A DNA stretch of 42,263 bases from a virus, in IMG/VR virus record IMGVR_UViG_3300025941_000048, positions 1 to 42,263 of that record; one strand, 5' to 3'. The translations under genes and the position numbers were made by a program. Within the stretch, counting starts at the first letter, position 1, and each line of letters opens with the position of its first letter. Under the pieces are notes generated by a model. That model made no database searches, was not told the DNA's origin, and worked only from the letters and a program-made list of their open reading frames with translations. Below, one piece after another: positions 707 through 32,586 of the stretch.

Positions 707-2810
707 GCGCAGGAACGACCCGAGCCGGCCGCGCGACACCGACCCACTGTCGCTCACGAGTGATCCGACTGGGGGCCAGCTGACCGCACTCTGGAAACAC
801 GCGGATGCTCGGTTCCCCCAGTCCAGGAAGTGGATCAGGGACGCCCGCGACATCCTCAACAAGGCCCCGTCGACCCTGCTGGACCAGGGCCCGGCGCCCT
901 TTGCACTGCCGCAACGGATGTTGGCCGTGACGATGACGAACTCGTTGTCGTCGCAGTACGGCGTCCCCGAGCTGACCCGCTACGGCAAGCCCGTGGCAAG
1001 TGACAAGTCGGACCAAATCGAGACCGTCCTCAAGGCCACCCTTGAACGGCTGCTCTCGGTCCCCGACCTGTTCGGGAAAGCCACGCAAGACGGGCAGTGG
1101 GGGATCGCCGTCCTGCCAGCGGGCGCCGAGTGGGACCACATCCCCGTCTACTCCCCCGAGGGGTACAGCCTCGACAGCGAGGATCGGACACCCGACGACG
1201 ACGGGTACACGGGGCGCGACCCTGCCCGCTCGCGTCGGGCGTACGACAAGGACTACGAGGCCTACTGCGCGCGCTGCGACTACGTGGCCGTCGACCTGAT
1301 CGACCCGACCGACTGCGCCCCGATCCTGACCCGCGGGACCCACGGCCGCCGCTTCGCCTGCCGCGGCCTGCTGGTGCGCAGGCTGTTCGAGCGCGAGGAG
1401 CTGCTCGACCAGGGCTATTCCTCGCCCGCGCTCGCCTCCGAGAAGGCCACGCTGATCCCGAGAGGCGACCGCGGGACGTTCCGCGGCAAGGGTGGCAAGC
1501 TGTACCTCTACACGGCGTACGTCAGTCTCTGGGACGACGACGACGAGTGCCTGGTGCCCTGCGTCGTCTACAGCGTCGCGGGCGAGGACACCCGCCGCTA
1601 CAGTCCGCGCACGGGGTCCCACACGGCCGCCTTGATCAACCTTAAGGAGGAGTGGGGCATCACCACCCCGATGTGGGGCTACTACCACGGGTTGCGCACG
1701 GCCGACCCCGACCCCGACAAGGTCGGCCTGCCGTTCATGAACGCCTACGCGGGGCTGGTGATGGCGCTCGAGCGGATGCTGGCCGCCTCGGTCGCCCACG
1801 CCGAGCGCTCATCGTTCAAGGGCTCATGGGTCGAGCCTGCCGAGAACGTGCCACCCGAAGCGTACACCGAGACCGTCGAGAACCAGTTGCGCCTCAAGTC
1901 GTTCGACGAACCCGTCTCGGGCGAGCTGATGACGGCCCCAGGCCGCGTGACCCCCGTCGCTCCCCCGCCGCTCGGGACCGCCGCGACCCAGATGATGGCC
2001 GCCTTGATGCAACAGCTCCAGGTCACCTCGCCCGACCCCGCCCAGCCCGCGGGCTCTGGGGCCTCGGGCCACGCGATGTCGCTGGCGTCGGGGCTGATCG
2101 AGGCCGCGCACAGCGACATTCCGCGCGGGGTCCTGGAGTGTTTCGAGGACGTGGCCTCCTGGGTGCTCGAGTGCCTGTGCGCCGTCATGAAGACGAAGCA
2201 GGTCCCCTACGTCATCGACGCCAACGAGGAATTGCCGCCCGACGAGCCAGGCGCCCGCCGCTCCGTGTCCCAGCGCTACGTCTTGACCGAGAAGGACATC
2301 GGCGCGTCGTACAAGATCACGGCAACCTGGCGACAGCGGCCGGACCCTGTCAACGTCACGTTGAAAATGGACCAGGCCGACCGCGGTTATGCGTCGGTGG
2401 TCGACGTTCTCGAAGCGGCCGGGGAGACAAATACGACCTGGAAACTGGGCGAAATTCTCTACTACAAGGCCGTCATGACGCCTGGCAGCCCCGAAAACCT
2501 CGAGTTGTCGGCGTACGTGGCGCGAAAACGTGGGGAAACGTCACGGGCTGAGCAACTGGAGCTCGAAGCGAAACAGTTGCTCGAGCCGCAGGGGACCCCC
2601 ACCGACGCGATCGCGCCCGAAGCGGCACAGATGGCTCAGATGGCTGCAGGGCAACCCTCTGGGGTCGCAACGGGGGTCAAGAGCTCAATAGCTGCCACCG
2701 TGCAGGGCGCGCAGGAGGGTGGGCCCATCACGGCAGATGCGATGCAAGGCTCTGCGATGGGCGTCCGCGCTGCTGTTCCACCGAGCGTAGGGAACGGGAT
2801 GGCAGGCTAA
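699..2810 (+). CDS. Portal-like protein (703 aa)
   Basis: The probable dodecameric portal, through which DNA is pumped into the head and to which the tail attaches. Identification rests mainly on its place directly after terL and its length of about 700 residues, usual for podovirus portals such as that of P22. I do not recognise a diagnostic motif. The GTG start at 699 overlaps the terL stop and follows a G-rich run; the longer frame from 645 would overlap terL by 62 bases. The central part is rich in Asp/Arg/Tyr, and the C-terminus (from about residue 620) is Ala/Gln/Gly rich, as is common in portal barrels. The gene ends at 2810, four bases into the convergent HNH gene. Confidence 0.75.
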   Translation: MAERRNDPSRPRDTDPLSLTSDPTGGQLTALWKHADARFPQSRKWIRDARDILNKAPSTLLDQGPAPFALPQRMLAVTMTNSLSSQYGVPELTRYGKPVASDKSDQIETVLKATLERLLSVPDLFGKATQDGQWGIAVLPAGAEWDHIPVYSPEGYSLDSEDRTPDDDGYTGRDPARSRRAYDKDYEAYCARCDYVAVDLIDPTDCAPILTRGTHGRRFACRGLLVRRLFEREELLDQGYSSPALASEKATLIPRGDRGTFRGKGGKLYLYTAYVSLWDDDDECLVPCVVYSVAGEDTRRYSPRTGSHTAALINLKEEWGITTPMWGYYHGLRTADPDPDKVGLPFMNAYAGLVMALERMLAASVAHAERSSFKGSWVEPAENVPPEAYTETVENQLRLKSFDEPVSGELMTAPGRVTPVAPPPLGTAATQMMAALMQQLQVTSPDPAQPAGSGASGHAMSLASGLIEAAHSDIPRGVLECFEDVASWVLECLCAVMKTKQVPYVIDANEELPPDEPGARRSVSQRYVLTEKDIGASYKITATWRQRPDPVNVTLKMDQADRGYASVVDVLEAAGETNTTWKLGEILYYKAVMTPGSPENLELSAYVARKRGETSRAEQLELEAKQLLEPQGTPTDAIAPEAAQMAQMAAGQPSGVATGVKSSIAATVQGAQEGGPITADAMQGSAMGVRAAVPPSVGNGMAG

Positions 2811-3373
2811 TGCCGCAGTTGCACATGCTTCCACGCCCGTCCATTGACGATGGCCTGGATCTGGGACTGCCGTACGCCAAACTCGGCGGCGAGTGCCTTC
2901 TGCGTGACGCCGCCCGTGCCGTAGCGTTGAAGGATCTCGAGCACAGCTGCTTCGGTCAGCTTGGCCGTGCCGACGCGGTCGCCGCGCACGTGGCGCCCCC
3001 TGCTGACGGTGTCTCGCATGTTGTCCTGCTGGGTGCCGAGCGACAGGTGATCCAGACGCACGCAGGGCGGATTGTCGCAGCGGTGAAGCACGAACAGTCC
3101 ATCGGGGATCGGCCCGTGGGCCAACTCCCACGCCAGTCGGTGCACAAGGACGGGGCGCTGGCCGATTCCAATCCGCCCGTAGCCGTTCGGGTCGCGCATG
3201 CCCGTCCACTCAGAGCAGCCGTCGGGTTCATCGCTCGAGCGTACCCGCGACCACAGGCGGGACTCGGGGGTCCGTACGAAGCACGGTACCGAGCAGTAGC
3301 GTTGCGTGCGGCTCGTGCGCTTGAACGATCTGCCGCACGTCGGGCAGATCAGCATGGTAGGCTTCTTGGGCAT
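2807..3373 (-). CDS. HNH homing endonuclease 1 (188 aa)
   Basis: A free-standing HNH nuclease read against the structural genes. It has an N-terminal four-Cys zinc finger (CPTCGRSF then YCSVPC), a central HNH core (VHRLAWE, VLHRCDNPPC, then RLDHLSLGT), and a C-terminal helix-turn-helix ending in a W-x-H-V motif, typical of DNA-binding tails of phage homing endonucleases. Its stop overlaps the portal stop on the other strand. It has its own leader at 3374-3449 (promoter, hairpin, AGGAG). Such enzymes usually cut phage genomes lacking the insertion, which spreads the gene. Two relatives occur at 6983 and 21263. There is no sign of decay: all core residues are present. Confidence 0.92.
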   Translation of the reverse strand: MPKKPTMLICPTCGRSFKRTSRTQRYCSVPCFVRTPESRLWSRVRSSDEPDGCSEWTGMRDPNGYGRIGIGQRPVLVHRLAWELAHGPIPDGLFVLHRCDNPPCVRLDHLSLGTQQDNMRDTVSRGRHVRGDRVGTAKLTEAAVLEILQRYGTGGVTQKALAAEFGVRQSQIQAIVNGRAWKHVQLRH

Positions 3374-3449
3374 CGTCAGCTTACTCCTGGCGGTGTCACG
3401 CCCCCGGCTGTTCCAAGCAGCGCGGGGGTTTCGTGTCGCATGAAGTATA
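3374..3449 (-). promoter_or_regulatory. Leader of HNH gene 1: -10 box, bulged hairpin, Shine-Dalgarno
   Basis: Read on the minus strand: TATACT at 3449-3444; a hairpin at 3428-3401 with outer arms CCCCCG/CGGGGG, one unpaired C on the 5' side, inner arms GCTG/CAGC and a 7-base loop; then TGACACCG (3398-3391) and AGGAG about 10 bases before the ATG. The predicted transcript would start only a few bases before the hairpin. The same layout occurs at 7529-7595, 22055-22128 and (plus strand) 30545-30622, with different but complementary arms. Confidence 0.75.
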
Positions 3450-5564: not shown

Positions 5565-7007
5565 ATGGCAGGTTTGCCGTACTTGCCCAAGTCGGTCGCG
5601 GATACCACCGAGAGCTGGGGCTGGACCTCGACGGTGCAGTCGGCGCTGGGCTCGATCAAGGAGCAGGGCGAGGCGATCATGGCCCCGATCGGCCAGCAGC
5701 TCGCCTCGGCCATGCCGCAGCCTGCGCCCTTCCAGATGCCCGAGGACGTCGGCGCAGCCGATGGTCGCGCCACGCAGTGGAAACTGCCCGAGATTCAGCC
5801 GTTCACGCTGCCCGACCTGTCGGCGTGGGGATTTGGCCAGTCAGCAGCCCAGCCGACACCCGCGCCGCCGCAGCAGGACCAGGGCTTCGAGCTCTCCGCT
5901 GGGGCCACGCCCGACGCCACGGTCAGGAGGCGGCAGCCAGCAGCCACCAGCGGCGGCTTCAGCCTGCCAGGGCCCGAGGCGTGGGGTATGGGCAGCAGCA
6001 CGGCTCAACCAGCGCCAACGGGCCGAACCGCAGGGCCAGCCGCAGCCCCGAGCGGAGCGCCCGCACCGAGCGACGTGAACGGCTACCTGGAGCACGCAGC
6101 ACGCAAGGCGGGCATCGACCCCGCCCAGGTCCTCGCCGTGATGGGCAAGGAGGGGCCGACGGGCTGGGGCTCGGTCGGGACGTTCGATACGGGCACATCC
6201 TACGGGCCGCTGCAGCTCCACTACGCGGGCGGGTCGAACCCGAAGGAGGGCATGGGCGACCGCTTCACGCGAGCGACGGGCATCGACCTGCGGAAGGACT
6301 CGTCGGTCCAGGCGCACCAGGCGGCGGTCGACTTCGCGCTCGGTGAACTGGCGAAGCGCGGCGACTGGAGCGAGTGGTACGGCGCTGACAACGCCTTCCC
6401 AGCAGCCTCGGGCGGGCAGGGCCGGTTCACGAAGGTCAACCGCGTGCAGCCCACGCAGCAGCCCGCGGCCGAGGTCGCGCCAACGGGCGCGCCGAAGCTC
6501 GGCACCTACACGCCAGAGACCCTGAGCCCCAACCAGTTCACTGAAGGCCAGGCGCAGGGGCTCTCCGCTGAGGAGGCCCTTGCCGTGTGCGGGCCAGCCG
6601 CGGCCGTGGCGTTCGCACGCGCGAACGGCCGCAACCCGACGCTCAGAGAGGCCAAGGAGCTCGCCCAGAACCTCGGCCTCTGGGACCAAGGTCAGGGGAT
6701 GCACGGGCCAGCCTCGCAGGTCCAACTCCTTGAGAAGATGGGCGTGCAGGCGTCGCTCCAGCCAGGCACCGACTGGACCAGGGTCGCCCAGGAGGTCCAG
6801 GCGGGGAGGCCGGTCATACTGGACAGTCCAAACCACTACTTCACGGTCTCGGGCTACGACCCACAGACGGGTGAGTTTGAGCTAGGTCAGAGCGCAGCCG
6901 TCCTCAAGGCATCCAAGGGGCGGACGAGATACAGGCCCGATGAGATACCGGGCCTCGGGATGGGAAATATCCGCGCGACGATCTACATGGGCGCGTCGGG
7001 GAGATAA
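5565..7007 (+). CDS. Virion-associated lytic transglycosylase with C39-like peptidase module (480 aa)
   Basis: Residues 1-170 are Pro/Gln/Ala-rich linker. Residues about 171-280 read as a lysozyme/SLT-like fold: a helix with the likely catalytic Glu in VMGKEG (about 196), then SYGPLQLHYAG. Residues about 335-475 read as a C39-type papain-like peptidase: Cys342 in AVCGPAAA and His424 in NHYFTVSGYD, followed by an Asp/Asn-containing strand. The protein would open the peptidoglycan during DNA entry by cutting both glycan and peptide bonds. It sits between the coiled-coil and giant proteins, so it probably travels in the virion. Its 3' end overlaps HNH gene 2 by 25 bases on the opposite strand. 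Domain names rest on motifs only. Confidence 0.8.
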   Translation: MAGLPYLPKSVADTTESWGWTSTVQSALGSIKEQGEAIMAPIGQQLASAMPQPAPFQMPEDVGAADGRATQWKLPEIQPFTLPDLSAWGFGQSAAQPTPAPPQQDQGFELSAGATPDATVRRRQPAATSGGFSLPGPEAWGMGSSTAQPAPTGRTAGPAAAPSGAPAPSDVNGYLEHAARKAGIDPAQVLAVMGKEGPTGWGSVGTFDTGTSYGPLQLHYAGGSNPKEGMGDRFTRATGIDLRKDSSVQAHQAAVDFALGELAKRGDWSEWYGADNAFPAASGGQGRFTKVNRVQPTQQPAAEVAPTGAPKLGTYTPETLSPNQFTEGQAQGLSAEEALAVCGPAAAVAFARANGRNPTLREAKELAQNLGLWDQGQGMHGPASQVQLLEKMGVQASLQPGTDWTRVAQEVQAGRPVILDSPNHYFTVSGYDPQTGEFELGQSAAVLKASKGRTRYRPDEIPGLGMGNIRATIYMGASGR

Positions 7008-7528
7008 ACGTGACGCCAGATGTCGCCGCGTCGAATCCGCATGATGACGCTCGGGTTCACGCCGTACTCACGGGCGAGTCGTGCCTGCGTGCCGCGTGGT
7101 GGGTTGGAGGCGAGAACGTCCAGGATCGCGCGGACATCCTCATCCGACAGTCTGGCGTTGTGGTTCCGGGTGCCGGGAGCGCCCTGATGTTGGTATCGCC
7201 CGCGTGCGTGCATGTCCCTGGTGTTGTCCAGCGGCGTGCCCACGTACAGGTGGCGGGGGTTGCAGCAACGCGGGACGTCGCAGGTGTGGAGGGCCCACTC
7301 ACCGCTGCGGAGCGGACGCCCAAGGGTGATCTCCAGGACGAGGCGGTGTGCCTTACGGATGTGCCCGAGGCCGTCGTTGATCTGGCCGTAGCCGCCGCGA
7401 TCAACCGATGCAGTCCAGGGCCAGCAGTCGTCGGGATCCCCGATGTCGATCTTGTACCAGACACGGACCTCGACTGGCCCCTCGGTGCGCGGCGAGCGCG
7501 GCTGGCGGATGATATCGTAGATAGGCAT
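6983..7528 (-). CDS. HNH homing endonuclease 2 (181 aa)
   Basis: The second antisense HNH gene. It lacks the N-terminal zinc finger of copies 1 and 3 and begins with a short domain containing DDCWPWTAS and GGYGQI, typical of phage HNH proteins. The HNH core follows (KAHRLVLE, ALHTCDVPRC, then NPRHLYVGT), and a C-terminal helix-turn-helix ends in IWRHVYLPD. It overlaps the 3' end of the transglycosylase gene by 25 bases, so insertion has rewritten or uses the end of that frame. The leader at 7529-7595 supplies its own promoter and AGGAG, with a good 8-base spacing to the ATG. Confidence 0.92.
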   Translation of the reverse strand: MPIYDIIRQPRSPRTEGPVEVRVWYKIDIGDPDDCWPWTASVDRGGYGQINDGLGHIRKAHRLVLEITLGRPLRSGEWALHTCDVPRCCNPRHLYVGTPLDNTRDMHARGRYQHQGAPGTRNHNARLSDEDVRAILDVLASNPPRGTQARLAREYGVNPSVIMRIRRGDIWRHVYLPDAPM

Positions 7529-7595
7529 CGAGATTACTCCTCGGTGTCAGTCCCGGACGGTGACAGCCGTGCCGGGACACTTCGCGTTAATTGTA
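7529..7595 (-). promoter_or_regulatory. Leader of HNH gene 2: extended -10, bulged hairpin, Shine-Dalgarno
   Basis: Minus-strand reading: TGG-TACAAT (-10 at 7595-7590); a hairpin at 7578-7550 with outer arms GTCCCGG/CCGGGAC, an unpaired C on the 5' side, inner arms ACGG/CCGT and a 6-base loop; TGACACCG at 7549-7542; AGGAG; ATG at 7528. Both helices differ in sequence from copy 1 but pair completely. Confidence 0.78.
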
Positions 7596-21262: not shown

Positions 21263-22054
21263 TCACAGCACGTGCCGCCACGTCTTGCGGGTGATGACGC
21301 TCCGGATCGCGGTGTAGGCGAGGCCACGCTGCCGGGCAATCGCCTTCATGCTCACCCCCGCCGCGTGCTCGGCGCGGATCTCTCGAACCGCCTGCTCGGT
21401 CAGTTTGGCCTGATGGTGACGCTCCCCGCGCAGTCGCCCGACCTTGACGCGCCGCTCGGCCTGATAGCGTCGGGACCGTTCGTTGGAGCACGTACGGCAT
21501 CGCTGAGCCCCGCTCGCCGCGATGACGATGAGGTTCTTGCCGCCCAGGGCGTGGCCGCGCAGACAGGTGGCATCACGGTGCGCGGCGATGAACCGGTTCG
21601 CACCGCGCCTGACGTTCTCGGCGTGCGTCACCGGCTCGAGGTGGCTCGGGCGGACGCAGCCCGGCCTCCGGCACAGGTGGTCAAGCTCGAGCCCGTCCGG
21701 GATCGGCCCGTTAACGCCCTCGTAGACGAGGCGATGCACCAGAACAGCGCGCCCGGCGACATAGATCGACGGGTAGCCTTGGGGCCCGGCTGCGTCGGAG
21801 ATCCAGCACGCGCCAAGGTCGGGGCGGAGGTCCGGGACTGGGCCATGCTTGTCGACCCTCGCCAGCGCCCGAGCCAGGGCCGTTTCCGCAGAACGCCGAG
21901 TCCGCCACGCGTACCCACACCTAGGCGTGCAAAAGCGCCGGGTACGGAAGACCTTCTTCGGGGCCAGGAACCGCTGGCCGCACTGCTCGCAGGTCAATTC
22001 GACTTGGGTGAAGGGCAGGAACGGCATCCGGGCGGGCGTATAGTATCCGGGCAT
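21263..22054 (-). CDS. HNH homing endonuclease 3 with two zinc modules (263 aa)
   Basis: The largest of the three antisense HNH genes. An N-terminal four-Cys finger (TCEQCGQRF, then FCTPRC) resembles that of copy 1. The HNH core is VLVHRLVYEG, LELDHLCRRPGC, then RPSHLEPVTH. A second Cys/His cluster follows (CLRGHALG, then CRTCSNERSRRY) and a C-terminal helix-turn-helix ends in TWRHVL. The ATG at 22054 is preferred because GGAG lies six bases before it; the TTG at 22066 overlaps that site. It sits between the tail hub and the fibre genes and carries its own leader (22055-22128). Confidence 0.93.
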   Translation of the reverse strand: MPGYYTPARMPFLPFTQVELTCEQCGQRFLAPKKVFRTRRFCTPRCGYAWRTRRSAETALARALARVDKHGPVPDLRPDLGACWISDAAGPQGYPSIYVAGRAVLVHRLVYEGVNGPIPDGLELDHLCRRPGCVRPSHLEPVTHAENVRRGANRFIAAHRDATCLRGHALGGKNLIVIAASGAQRCRTCSNERSRRYQAERRVKVGRLRGERHHQAKLTEQAVREIRAEHAAGVSMKAIARQRGLAYTAIRSVITRKTWRHVL

Positions 22055-22128
22055 CGGGTGCTCCAATCACTCGGTGTCACGCCCTCGGCTGTTGCAAGCA
22101 GTGCGAGGGCATTTGCACGTCAATTATA
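22055..22128 (-). promoter_or_regulatory. Leader of HNH gene 3: consensus -10, bulged hairpin, Shine-Dalgarno
   Basis: Minus-strand reading: TATAAT at 22128-22123; a hairpin at 22110-22081 with outer arms GCCCTCG/CGAGGGC, an unpaired C on the 5' side, inner arms CTG/CAG (the fourth pair of copy 1 is an A-C mismatch here) and loop CTTGCAA; TGACACCG at 22079-22072; GGAG; ATG at 22054. The consensus -10 stands out against the GC-rich surroundings. I see no clear -35. Confidence 0.8.
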
Positions 22129-30544: not shown

Positions 30545-30622
30545 TATACTAGCGCCACGCAAGAGCCGCCGCGCAGATGCCCGTCTGCCGGCGGCACGGT
30601 GAAACCAAGGAGGTGATTTCAC
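30545..30622 (+). promoter_or_regulatory. Promoter and bulged-hairpin leader of the integrase operon (family 1, fourth copy)
   Basis: TATACT (-10, 30545-30550); a hairpin at 30565-30595 with outer arms GCCGCCG/CGGCGGC, one unpaired C (30572) on the 5' side, inner arms GCAGA/TCTGC and a 6-base loop; then ACGGTGAAACC and a near-perfect AAGGAGGTGA before the GTG at 30623. The same layout and polarity as the three HNH leaders, down to the bulge and the TGAxACC next to the Shine-Dalgarno, but on the other strand and before a different kind of gene. Confidence 0.72.
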
Positions 30623-30832
30623 GTGTACAGTCTACCCCCCACGCCGCCGCCAGCCGACGACGAGCGGCCGAGCCTTCGCGAGGCACTTGGCGACATCCTG
30701 CTGGACCTGATTGAGGCTGGTTGCCTCTACGTCCGCGACCACCCAGCCGTCAAGATCCGCATCAGTCGGCACGTCGGCGAGAACGTCGTCCAGATCGAGG
30801 TCGAGCACCAGCGCGCCGAGGGCGAAGCATGA
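30623..30832 (+). CDS. Small acidic protein upstream of integrase (69 aa)
   Basis: The GTG start lies behind the strongest Shine-Dalgarno in the window. A Pro-rich start (LPPTPPPADDERP) is followed by a helix (LREALGDILLDLIEAGCLYV) and two strands (AVKIRISRHVG, NVVQIEVEH). The helix-strand-strand build could make a small dimer. It overlaps the integrase gene by four bases (ATGA), so the two are coupled, and a recombination directionality factor is a possible role for a small protein in this place. The family is not recognised. Confidence 0.65.
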   Translation: MYSLPPTPPPADDERPSLREALGDILLDLIEAGCLYVRDHPAVKIRISRHVGENVVQIEVEHQRAEGEA

Positions 30833-32586
30833 GCGCACCGCGGCTGCTGCGTGGACGCACGGCGCCGCTCGACGACGTCACGATCGCCCGTATTTACGGT
30901 CGCGTATCGAGCGACGAGCAGGAGAAGGACGGCGTCTCGCTCGCCGACCAACTCGCCACGAATCGCCGCTACTGCGCGAGCAATGAGTTCGTGATTGGCG
31001 GTGAGTACCAGGACGTCCAGAGCGGCATGAAGGCAGCGCGGGCCGACTATCAACGGCTGCTGGCCGACGTGAGGGCCGACCGGGCCGAGGGACGACGGGC
31101 CGCCGTGGTCGTCAAGTTTCAGGATCGCCTGGGCCGCAACCTGCTCGAATCGGCCAAGGTATACGACGAACTGCAGAAGCTCGGGGTCGAGGTCCACGTC
31201 GCCGAAAGTGGCAGGGCGCCGAGCGAGGACGAATACATCCTCCGCGCCTTCGTCGCCCACATCGAGTCGCGAAATATTCGGGCGCGCACGAAGTCCGCCT
31301 ACCGCCACCTGGCCGAGAAGGGCTGGCATCGCCCCGGACAGCTCCCCTGGGGCTATGCGCTGCGTCCCAGAACCGTCGAGGAGCGGGCCGACGACGCGCC
31401 GCAGAACGTCATGGTGATCGACCCCGTGCAGGCGGCGTACGTCCGCGATGCCTTCGCCAGGGTCGCCGCGGGGACGTCGATCAGGGAGGTCGCACGCTGG
31501 GTCGCGACGCTGCCTGACGTCGCGAGAGGGGGGCGGAAGCTCACCTATAACACCGTGCGCAAGCTGCTTTCGGCACCCGTCTACGTCGGCCGTGGCGGGG
31601 GCCCTGATCATGAGGAGCCCGAGGCCGTGCTGGAGCGGCCAGCAGGCCGCTGGGAGCCGCTGGTGACGGAGGACACCTGGCGGCAGGTGGCGTCTCAGCG
31701 GCGACTGGCAGGCAAGATGCCGAACCAGGCGAGCGGCGAGTTCGTGCTCAGCGGGTTGCTCCGGTGTGCGCGGTGCGGCGAGCGGATGCAGGGACGGACC
31801 CGTCCGCTGCCGTCGGGGCCGCGCCGCGAGTATTGCTGTAGCAGTGCGCTGGTGCTTGGGACCGAGCACATAGCGAGGCCGTGTTGGTACACGGTGCCGG
31901 CCGACCCCATCGAGGACGAGGTGGAGCGCACCATCAGCGGGACGCTGAAGGCGGCTGGAGAACCGACGGCCAGGCGGGCCATCATTCGTGACCTCCAGGC
32001 CCAGGCGGCGGCGCCCGACGCAGACGCGCTGGGCCAGCAGATCCGTGAGCTCGAGATGGTTCGGACCAGGACCCAGGACCGCATGCACAACCTGACGATC
32101 CAGCTCACGGATGGGGTGGTCGACGCTGAGGCCTACAAGGACTCGGCAAAGCGGCTGCGCGACCAGCTCGACGCGACGACTCGGACATTGGAGGATCTGC
32201 GACGGGCGCGGCCGAGGGCGGCGGCGATCGGGCCGCTCGATGCGCTGCTGGGGTCGTGCGCGGGCTGGGCGCGGGTGTTGGCGTCGGGTGACGTGGCAGC
32301 CGTGCGTGCGGTGTACGGGCTGCTGCTCGAGGATGTGACGCCGATGCGGGTGGCCCGTGGCCGGTATCAGGTCGATCCGACGCCGACGGAGTCGGGGATG
32401 GTACTGCTGGAGGCGGCGGTGGTGGCGTTGAGGCAGGAGCGGAGCGGAGGGGCGAAGCGGCTGCTGATTCGTTTGGTCGCAGTTGGTGACCGAGCTAGCT
32501 CTCGGCACCCAACCCTGACCATGTCGGCGCTGTTGGGTGCCCAATCTGAGAACTTCAGCACTTTGTTATGTCCAACGGGCACGTGA
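30829..32586 (+). CDS. int: Large serine recombinase (phage integrase, 585 aa)
   Basis: The catalytic domain opens IARIYGRVSSDEQEKDGVSL, with Ser27 as the likely nucleophile, then VVVKFQDRLGRNL and SRNIRARTKSA (arginine-rich hinge). The recombinase domain follows (WHRPGQLPWGYAL, TYNTVRKLLSAPVYVG), then a zinc ribbon (CARCGERMQG with later Cys residues, about 313-350), a long coiled coil (about 400-460) and a short C-terminus. Length and domain order are normal. It would insert the phage at attB using attP without host topology factors. The ATG at 30829 overlaps the upstream small gene. The last 40 residues lie over an inverted repeat (32504-32541). Confidence 0.95.
   Translation: MSAPRLLRGRTAPLDDVTIARIYGRVSSDEQEKDGVSLADQLATNRRYCASNEFVIGGEYQDVQSGMKAARADYQRLLADVRADRAEGRRAAVVVKFQDRLGRNLLESAKVYDELQKLGVEVHVAESGRAPSEDEYILRAFVAHIESRNIRARTKSAYRHLAEKGWHRPGQLPWGYALRPRTVEERADDAPQNVMVIDPVQAAYVRDAFARVAAGTSIREVARWVATLPDVARGGRKLTYNTVRKLLSAPVYVGRGGGPDHEEPEAVLERPAGRWEPLVTEDTWRQVASQRRLAGKMPNQASGEFVLSGLLRCARCGERMQGRTRPLPSGPRREYCCSSALVLGTEHIARPCWYTVPADPIEDEVERTISGTLKAAGEPTARRAIIRDLQAQAAAPDADALGQQIRELEMVRTRTQDRMHNLTIQLTDGVVDAEAYKDSAKRLRDQLDATTRTLEDLRRARPRAAAIGPLDALLGSCAGWARVLASGDVAAVRAVYGLLLEDVTPMRVARGRYQVDPTPTESGMVLLEAAVVALRQERSGGAKRLLIRLVAVGDRASSRHPTLTMSALLGAQSENFSTLLCPTGT
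32504..32541. other. Candidate attP: 10-bp inverted repeat at the 3' end of int
   Basis: GGCACCCAAC (32504-32513) and GTTGGGTGCC (32532-32541) are perfectly complementary around an 18-base centre. Serine-integrase attP sites are about 50 bp, imperfectly symmetrical around a short crossover and usually lie next to int. Position and symmetry fit, but the centre cannot be identified by eye. A transcript hairpin is the main alternative. Confidence 0.4.

Follow-up and report, generated by a model that had tools for sequence, protein, structure and literature searches.

In the window, by which we mean the whole stretch of 42,263 nucleotides of viral DNA analysed here, three HNH endonuclease genes and a transcript carrying a serine integrase are preceded by a common type of leader, in which two adjoining hairpins, P1 and P2, form an RNA fold tying in the Shine-Dalgarno sequence (SD), the base at position −1 and the start codon; this fold is well shown by the comparison of related sequences. 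We consider it rather probable that the leader is a portable cis-acting element of about 75–90 nt, which would limit the translation of genes of mobile elements until the start site opens.

A preliminary description of this DNA had assigned to the three HNH genes a shared leader made of a −10-like box, a P1 hairpin with a bulged C, the octamer TGACACCG and an SD, and our base-by-base reading agrees with it for all three (Table 1). These genes lie on the minus strand amid plus-strand phage genes, and a GenBank megablast with the first 20 kb of the window found no relative. Copy 1 scored 41.5 bits (E 4e-12) with the covariance model R1, which was built from the sequences of anchor search 1 (see below) irrespective of the downstream gene, and 42.2 bits (E 1e-10) with the covariance model R2. 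For the third HNH gene the ORF caller had set the start at TTG 22066, within the RNA leader, while the position of the leader implies ATG 22054. The fourth sequence that had been put forward as a seed (30545-30622) proved to be a genuine plus-strand copy, as judged from the reading of the sequence and from R2, which detected it with 38.8 bits (E 1.2e-9) and whose training set did not contain it. The 69-aa ORF located between this copy and the serine integrase gave no PHROG match, and may act together with the integrase.

Table 1. Features of the leaders in the window, and of related loci in other sequences.
Feature	Position	Strand	Basis or remark
Copy 1 −10-like box TATACT	3449-3444	-	read from sequence; TANNNT enrichment at matching P1 distance, 233 elements
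Copy 1 P1 CCCCCG-C-GCTG-cttggaa-CAGC-CGGGGG	3428-3401	-	unpaired C 3422; direct reading
Copy 1 octamer TGACACCG	3398-3391	-	direct reading
Copy 1 SD AGGAG	3388-3384	-	inside P2; direct reading
Copy 1 P2, CACCG (octamer end) with CGATG including start codon	3371-3395	-	sequence and comparative P2; MFE fold differs
Copy 1 start codon ATG	3373	-	direct reading
HNH_3 endonuclease gene 1	2807-3373	-	Pfam HNH_3 E 7e-17
Copy 2 −10-like box TACAAT	7595-7590	-	direct reading
Copy 2 P1 GTCCCGG-C-ACGG-ctgtca-CCGT-CCGGGAC	7578-7550	-	unpaired C 7571; R1 15.8 bits, E 0.007
Copy 2 octamer TGACACCG	7549-7542	-	direct reading
Copy 2 P2 CACCGAG-gagtaat-CTCGATG	7526-7546	-	start codon in 3′ strand; sequence, within predicted MFE fold
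Copy 2 start codon ATG	7528	-	direct reading
HNH-like endonuclease gene 2	6983-7528	-	HNH_3 E 2.8e-5, slightly short of Pfam cut-off
Copy 3 −10-like box TATAAT	22128-22123	-	direct reading
Copy 3 P1 GCCCTCG-C-ACTG-cttgcaa-CAGC-CGAGGGC	22110-22081	-	unpaired C 22103; R1 30.3 bits, E 5e-8
Copy 3 octamer TGACACCG	22079-22072	-	direct reading
Copy 3 P2 CACCG-a-GTG-attggag-CAC-c-CGATG	22052-22076	-	ATG 22054; sequence and comparative, MFE fold differs
HNH_3 endonuclease gene 3, start moved to ATG 22054	21263-22054	-	HNH_3 E 2e-14
Copy 4 −10-like box TATACT	30545-30550	+	direct reading
Copy 4 P1 GCCGCCG-C-GCAGA-tgcccg-TCTGC-CGGCGGC	30565-30595	+	unpaired C 30572; direct reading
Copy 4 P2 GTGAAA...TTTCAC	30599-30625	+	AAGGAGG inside; direct reading, in MFE fold
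69-aa ORF led by copy 4	30623-30832	+	GTG start 30623; ATGA overlap with integrase start
Serine integrase, gene 2 of copy-4-led transcript	30829-32586	+	PHROG 95 integrase E 7e-66; Resolvase domain
HNH relatives with P1-like hairpin (L004, L006, L007, L020, L052, L074, L087, L099)			
Cas1-like gene, L417	7350-8891	-	behind the element, actinobacterial genome
Cas1-like gene, L418	3340-4926	-	behind the element, actinobacterial genome
Cas1-like gene, L419	6223-7785	+	behind the element, actinobacterial genome
Small gene, L429	4653-5074		at the site of HNH cassette 1 of the window

Taken singly, the leaders are not decisive: the z-scores of minimum free energy (MFE) folding range from −0.4 to −3.0 (−0.4 for copy 1 and −1.3 for copy 2), and the best single RNAfold structure of copies 1 and 3 leaves the start codon outside P2. 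The octamer TGACACCG, tried as a free-standing motif, gave 5 matches where 2.2 were expected and is accounted for as a strand of P2; in the subclass found in the window its CACCG is the 5′ strand, opposite CGATG. Since the folding energies of copies 1 and 2 are unremarkable and the octamer alone is weak, the proof of the structure is comparative and not thermodynamic. HNH relatives in viral contigs, scanned for a stem, one unpaired base and a further stem, have the same hairpin with different arms before the HNH gene (Table 1). Anchor search 1, in which the pattern fixed part of P1 and the linker and nothing downstream, matched at least 119 viral-contig stretches, and behind nearly all true matches we found a P2 with the SD in or beside its loop. 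When 40 of these sequences were aligned, the inner stem of P1 showed paired changes only, double changes were present in 7/7 P2 pairs, and the covariation score reached 0.401, while shuffles gave 0.090 (sd 0.011) and slid partners no more than 0.073.

Anchor search 2 fixed the linker and P2 only, leaving the upstream sequence free, and matched 53 viral-contig stretches and 25 stretches of Streptomyces chromosomes, corresponding to about 70 distinct sequences. The bulged-C P1 was visible throughout the free upstream region with paired changes in both arms, as in CCCCG/CGGGG, CTCCCG/CGGGAG, CCTCGG/CCGAGG and CACACG/CGTGTG, and the use of two independent anchors, one on the side of P1 and the other on that of P2, removes circularity. 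An alignment of 86 sequences had 92.5% of its cells paired, double changes in 16 of 20 pairs and a covariation score of 0.394 (shuffles, 0.120; slid partners, no higher than 0.074), the counts being of non-independent events, as the aligned elements are mutually related. The unpaired base of P1 is a C in 235 of the 237 elements parsed, and has a G on its 5′ side in 234/235. The claim that pairing is conserved despite sequence change is therefore strongly supported by these 86 relatives, and the arms vary with compensation, the opposite of the unpaired divergence that the preliminary description had named as fatal to it; the element can thus be regarded, as proposed there, as one acting at the RNA level, with a two-tier covarying hairpin, an invariant bulged C and arms that vary while remaining paired. 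A side observation concerns pair 2 of the inner P1 stem (columns 22-36 of A4), in which an A-C mismatch, resembling an A+-C wobble intermediate, occurs in 12/86 sequences beside A-U and G-C.

Mutual information in the 86-sequence alignment ranked at the top the pairs of P1 together with a previously unproposed one, R48-Y91, which joins the R of GTGRC to base −1 (G-C 88, A-T 47, A-C 3 and G-T 1 in 232 elements; Fisher p 3e-32). This pair lengthens P2, so that CGU comes to lie opposite the start codon AUG, and P1 and P2 directly adjoin. By RNAfold, the start codon is paired in 160 of 229 MFE folds, and its mean pairing is 0.61 versus 0.44 with shuffled linkers. The earlier statement that the hairpin leaves the ribosome site uncovered agrees with P1 alone, but has to be revised for the whole leader, whose adjoining P2 encloses the SD, within or close to the loop, and pairs the start codon as part of the stem. 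The predicted occlusion of the start codon is only moderate, as would suit a P1 acting as a protein- or ribosome-binding enhancer of initiation, with P2 just displaying the SD in its loop in a non-repressive manner; moreover, the conservation of the G-C-G bulge motif, which faces CC, and of the A-N3-UA motif described below goes well beyond the needs of a plain blocking stem. We nevertheless judge such an enhancer unlikely, since the R48-Y91 covariation ties the start codon and base −1 into a stem that it would not need.

The A-N3-UA(C) motif occupies codons 3-5 (ORF nt 8-14) behind the element. Of 232 elements, 144 have a TA at ORF nt 12, against a background of 1.3%, and 140 of these 144 have A8. 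In the subclass with the GTGRCA linker, which is that of the window, the A-N3-UA motif lies one codon later (19/24); since its position shifts with the linker subclass, its location tracks the RNA subclass and not the protein sequence. An alternative fold in which the GUG of the linker would pair with the UAC of the coding sequence, thereby freeing the start codon, was rejected for want of support from covariation: in linkers with A or U replacing the G, the third base does not change as that pairing would expect.

Upstream of P1, a TANNNT box shows a peak at 18-24 nt, and 118/233 elements have one at 18-27 nt. The transcript is thus expected to start a few bases 5′ of P1, in keeping with the preliminary prediction. 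In the Cas1 loci described below this box is absent, and the element spans the gap between two genes. In roughly half of the elements a −10 box brings P1 near the 5′ end, and one may suppose that P1 is a non-regulatory stabiliser of that end, or an insulator shielding the ribosome site from upstream sequence, from which mobile cassettes would benefit. We find this improbable, because any stable hairpin would suffice for it, yet the bulged C is invariant (235/237) and the coding motif conserved, and because some elements, such as those of the Cas1 loci, are inside operons and have no −10 box. A similar arrangement is known from the put RNA of phage HK022, in which two adjoining hairpins, one of them bulged, are placed near the 5′ end of the transcript. 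The element recalls put in these respects, and might be an antitermination RNA read by RNA polymerase; we give this very little credit, as P2 is organised around the SD and the start codon, the motif reaches codons 3-5, and the element is also found within operons.

The model R1 recovered the three HNH leaders of the window and further ones belonging to other HNH genes, almost every one immediately before the HNH start; in the HNH loci the element was within about 300 nt upstream of the gene. The leader had been described as private to HNH genes, which does not hold, as about half of the followers sampled belong to other gene types, and the element stands in front of hundreds of unrelated mobile-element genes of phages and Streptomyces. 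Pfam assigned to the 131 sampled followers, with overlapping counts, HNH_3 (24), HNH (13), HNH_5 (10) and Cas1 (3), as well as endonuclease VII, GIY-YIG types, tyrosine and serine recombinases, Bro-N, SWIM, DUF6415 and others, and many followers are small Streptomyces proteins of no assigned function. This diversity rules out an HNH-specific riboregulator. By R2 search, which among bacterial genomes covered the Actinomycetota, at least one element was present in each of 29 out of 41 Streptomyces genomes and of 32 out of 246 Actinomycetota genomes. Among phages, it was found in the Arthrobacter phages Persistence, Bauer, ArV2, Richie, Kumotta (before endonuclease VII) and Jinkies, and in the cyanophage Pan2 of Pseudanabaena (E 3.6e-9). 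In three actinobacterial loci (L417, L418 and L419; Table 1) a gene with an HTH-like N-terminus precedes a Cas1-like gene and the RNA element occupies the short gap between them; these are possibly mobile or solo Cas1 genes. Several Cas1 genes follow the element, but a CRISPR leader is an improbable reading of it, as no repeats were found near three of these loci; among the genes of Table 1, those in L417 and L418 have no short direct repeats nearby.

The leader travels with its gene, as can be seen from empty sites. The relative L428, whose upstream protein is 97% identical, is without the first HNH insert, and its upstream gene continues straight to the next gene; the corresponding insert of the window, of about 650 bases, consists of the HNH gene, P2, P1 and the promoter-like box. 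An equivalent insert is gene 23 of Jinkies in comparison with Vibaki and Hirko, in which the flanking genes overlap. This joint movement of leader and HNH gene would also be expected of a DNA site, either an operator or the end of a mobile cassette handled as a single-stranded hairpin by a recombinase. Such a site seems to us highly improbable, since the arms vary freely with pairing retained, its tie to the SD and the start codon persists, and the element also stands before many genes that are not obviously mobile alone. At the site of cassette 1, L429 has a different small gene and no HNH (Table 1), which indicates an insertion hot spot.

The absence of any described element of this build, claimed in the preliminary description, is consistent with Rfam 15, in which cmscan of the window and of 12 plus 15 further element loci matched no family to the element (HEARO and JUMPstart included), and with the literature, in which we found no paper describing it. 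In the T4-type homing endonucleases I-TevI, segB and Aeh1 mobE the ribosome-binding site is sequestered in hairpins, which form solely on long early transcripts, as a late promoter leaves late transcripts without part of the structure; in seg43 of Aeromonas phage 25 a stable hairpin is immediately upstream of the ribosome-binding site (PMC2988022). The likeness consists of an RNA structure at the start site of a phage endonuclease with the SD held in it, and here both P2 covariation, R48-Y91 included, and start-codon pairing place these sites in the structure. By contrast, the −10-like boxes of the element are not inside the structure, where they could allow a late escape, but 18-24 nt upstream of P1, so that the gene's own transcript contains the whole of it; besides, a single family marked by an invariant bulged C here precedes unrelated genes. 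Repeated elements ahead of the start codons of varied phage genes are also known as SAS/ESAS in cluster K mycobacteriophages, within which they are conserved in sequence: SAS, GGGATAGGAGCCC, has the SD between complementary ends and an inverted repeat upstream, is described as almost exclusive to cluster K, and the changes in ESAS, according to the authors, do not favour RNA pairing (PMC3203893). Repeats of the Start-Associated Sequence type likewise precede start codons in Microbacterium cluster EF phages (PMC7302621). Our element differs in that its sequence varies with pairing retained and in having the bulged C and the coding-sequence motif: no GGGATAGGAGCCC with up to 2 deviations stands before its start codons, the loops and arms of P2 being different and varying between copies, and its P1 arms vary with compensation, unlike a sequence-conserved, non-pairing inverted repeat. 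Neither the T4-type hairpins nor SAS/ESAS, therefore, share its build. HEARO, or omega RNA, is a structured RNA immediately upstream of IscB, an HNH-containing gene. The element resembles it in this position, but is small, takes in the ribosome-binding site and the start codon and leads many non-HNH genes; in the window, cmscan found no HEARO even at E values up to 1, and in the other loci none that matched the element.

The leader would thus be a ready-made expression module of genes in phages and other mobile elements, and the genes behind it probably have in it a portable on/off control. In about half of the cases the −10 box would put it at the extreme 5′ end of its own transcript, and elsewhere it can fill the space separating two genes within an operon. 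A closed P2 would shield the start codon from the ribosome, resulting in low or conditional translation, although the occlusion may be mild, P2 being short. P1 and the coding motif could be sensed by a host RNA-binding protein, or by the ribosome itself, which would set the opening of P2, or could form a tertiary contact tuning the ease with which it opens. The diversity of the downstream genes disfavours autoregulation by their own products, and their lack of a common pathway disfavours a metabolite sensor or riboswitch; the likelier readers are a host factor and the ribosome. A CsrA-type GGA loop was also considered and seems unnecessary, the GGA in the loop of P2 being accounted for by the SD. 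For a homing endonuclease or an integrase, the leader might ensure tightly limited expression irrespective of where the cassette lands.

More tentatively, and with our doubts slightly outweighing, we propose that the element represents an abundant and so far unrecognised class of cis-regulatory RNA. Its fold would extend from the leader over the start codon as far as codon 5, and phages, integrative elements and even solo cas1 genes, at least in Actinomycetota and a cyanophage, would use it as an exchangeable switch of translation that responds to a single common factor. If this is right, hundreds of genes of mobile elements would be under a single RNA control that is uncatalogued at least in Rfam, and the low and predictable expression of homing endonucleases, integrases and similar DNA-cutting genes after their jumps would be accounted for. 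It would also provide a route to the true start codons of the genes led by the element, which could double as a portable part for controlling gene expression in actinobacteria, and would imply a common reading factor in actinobacterial hosts and perhaps beyond.
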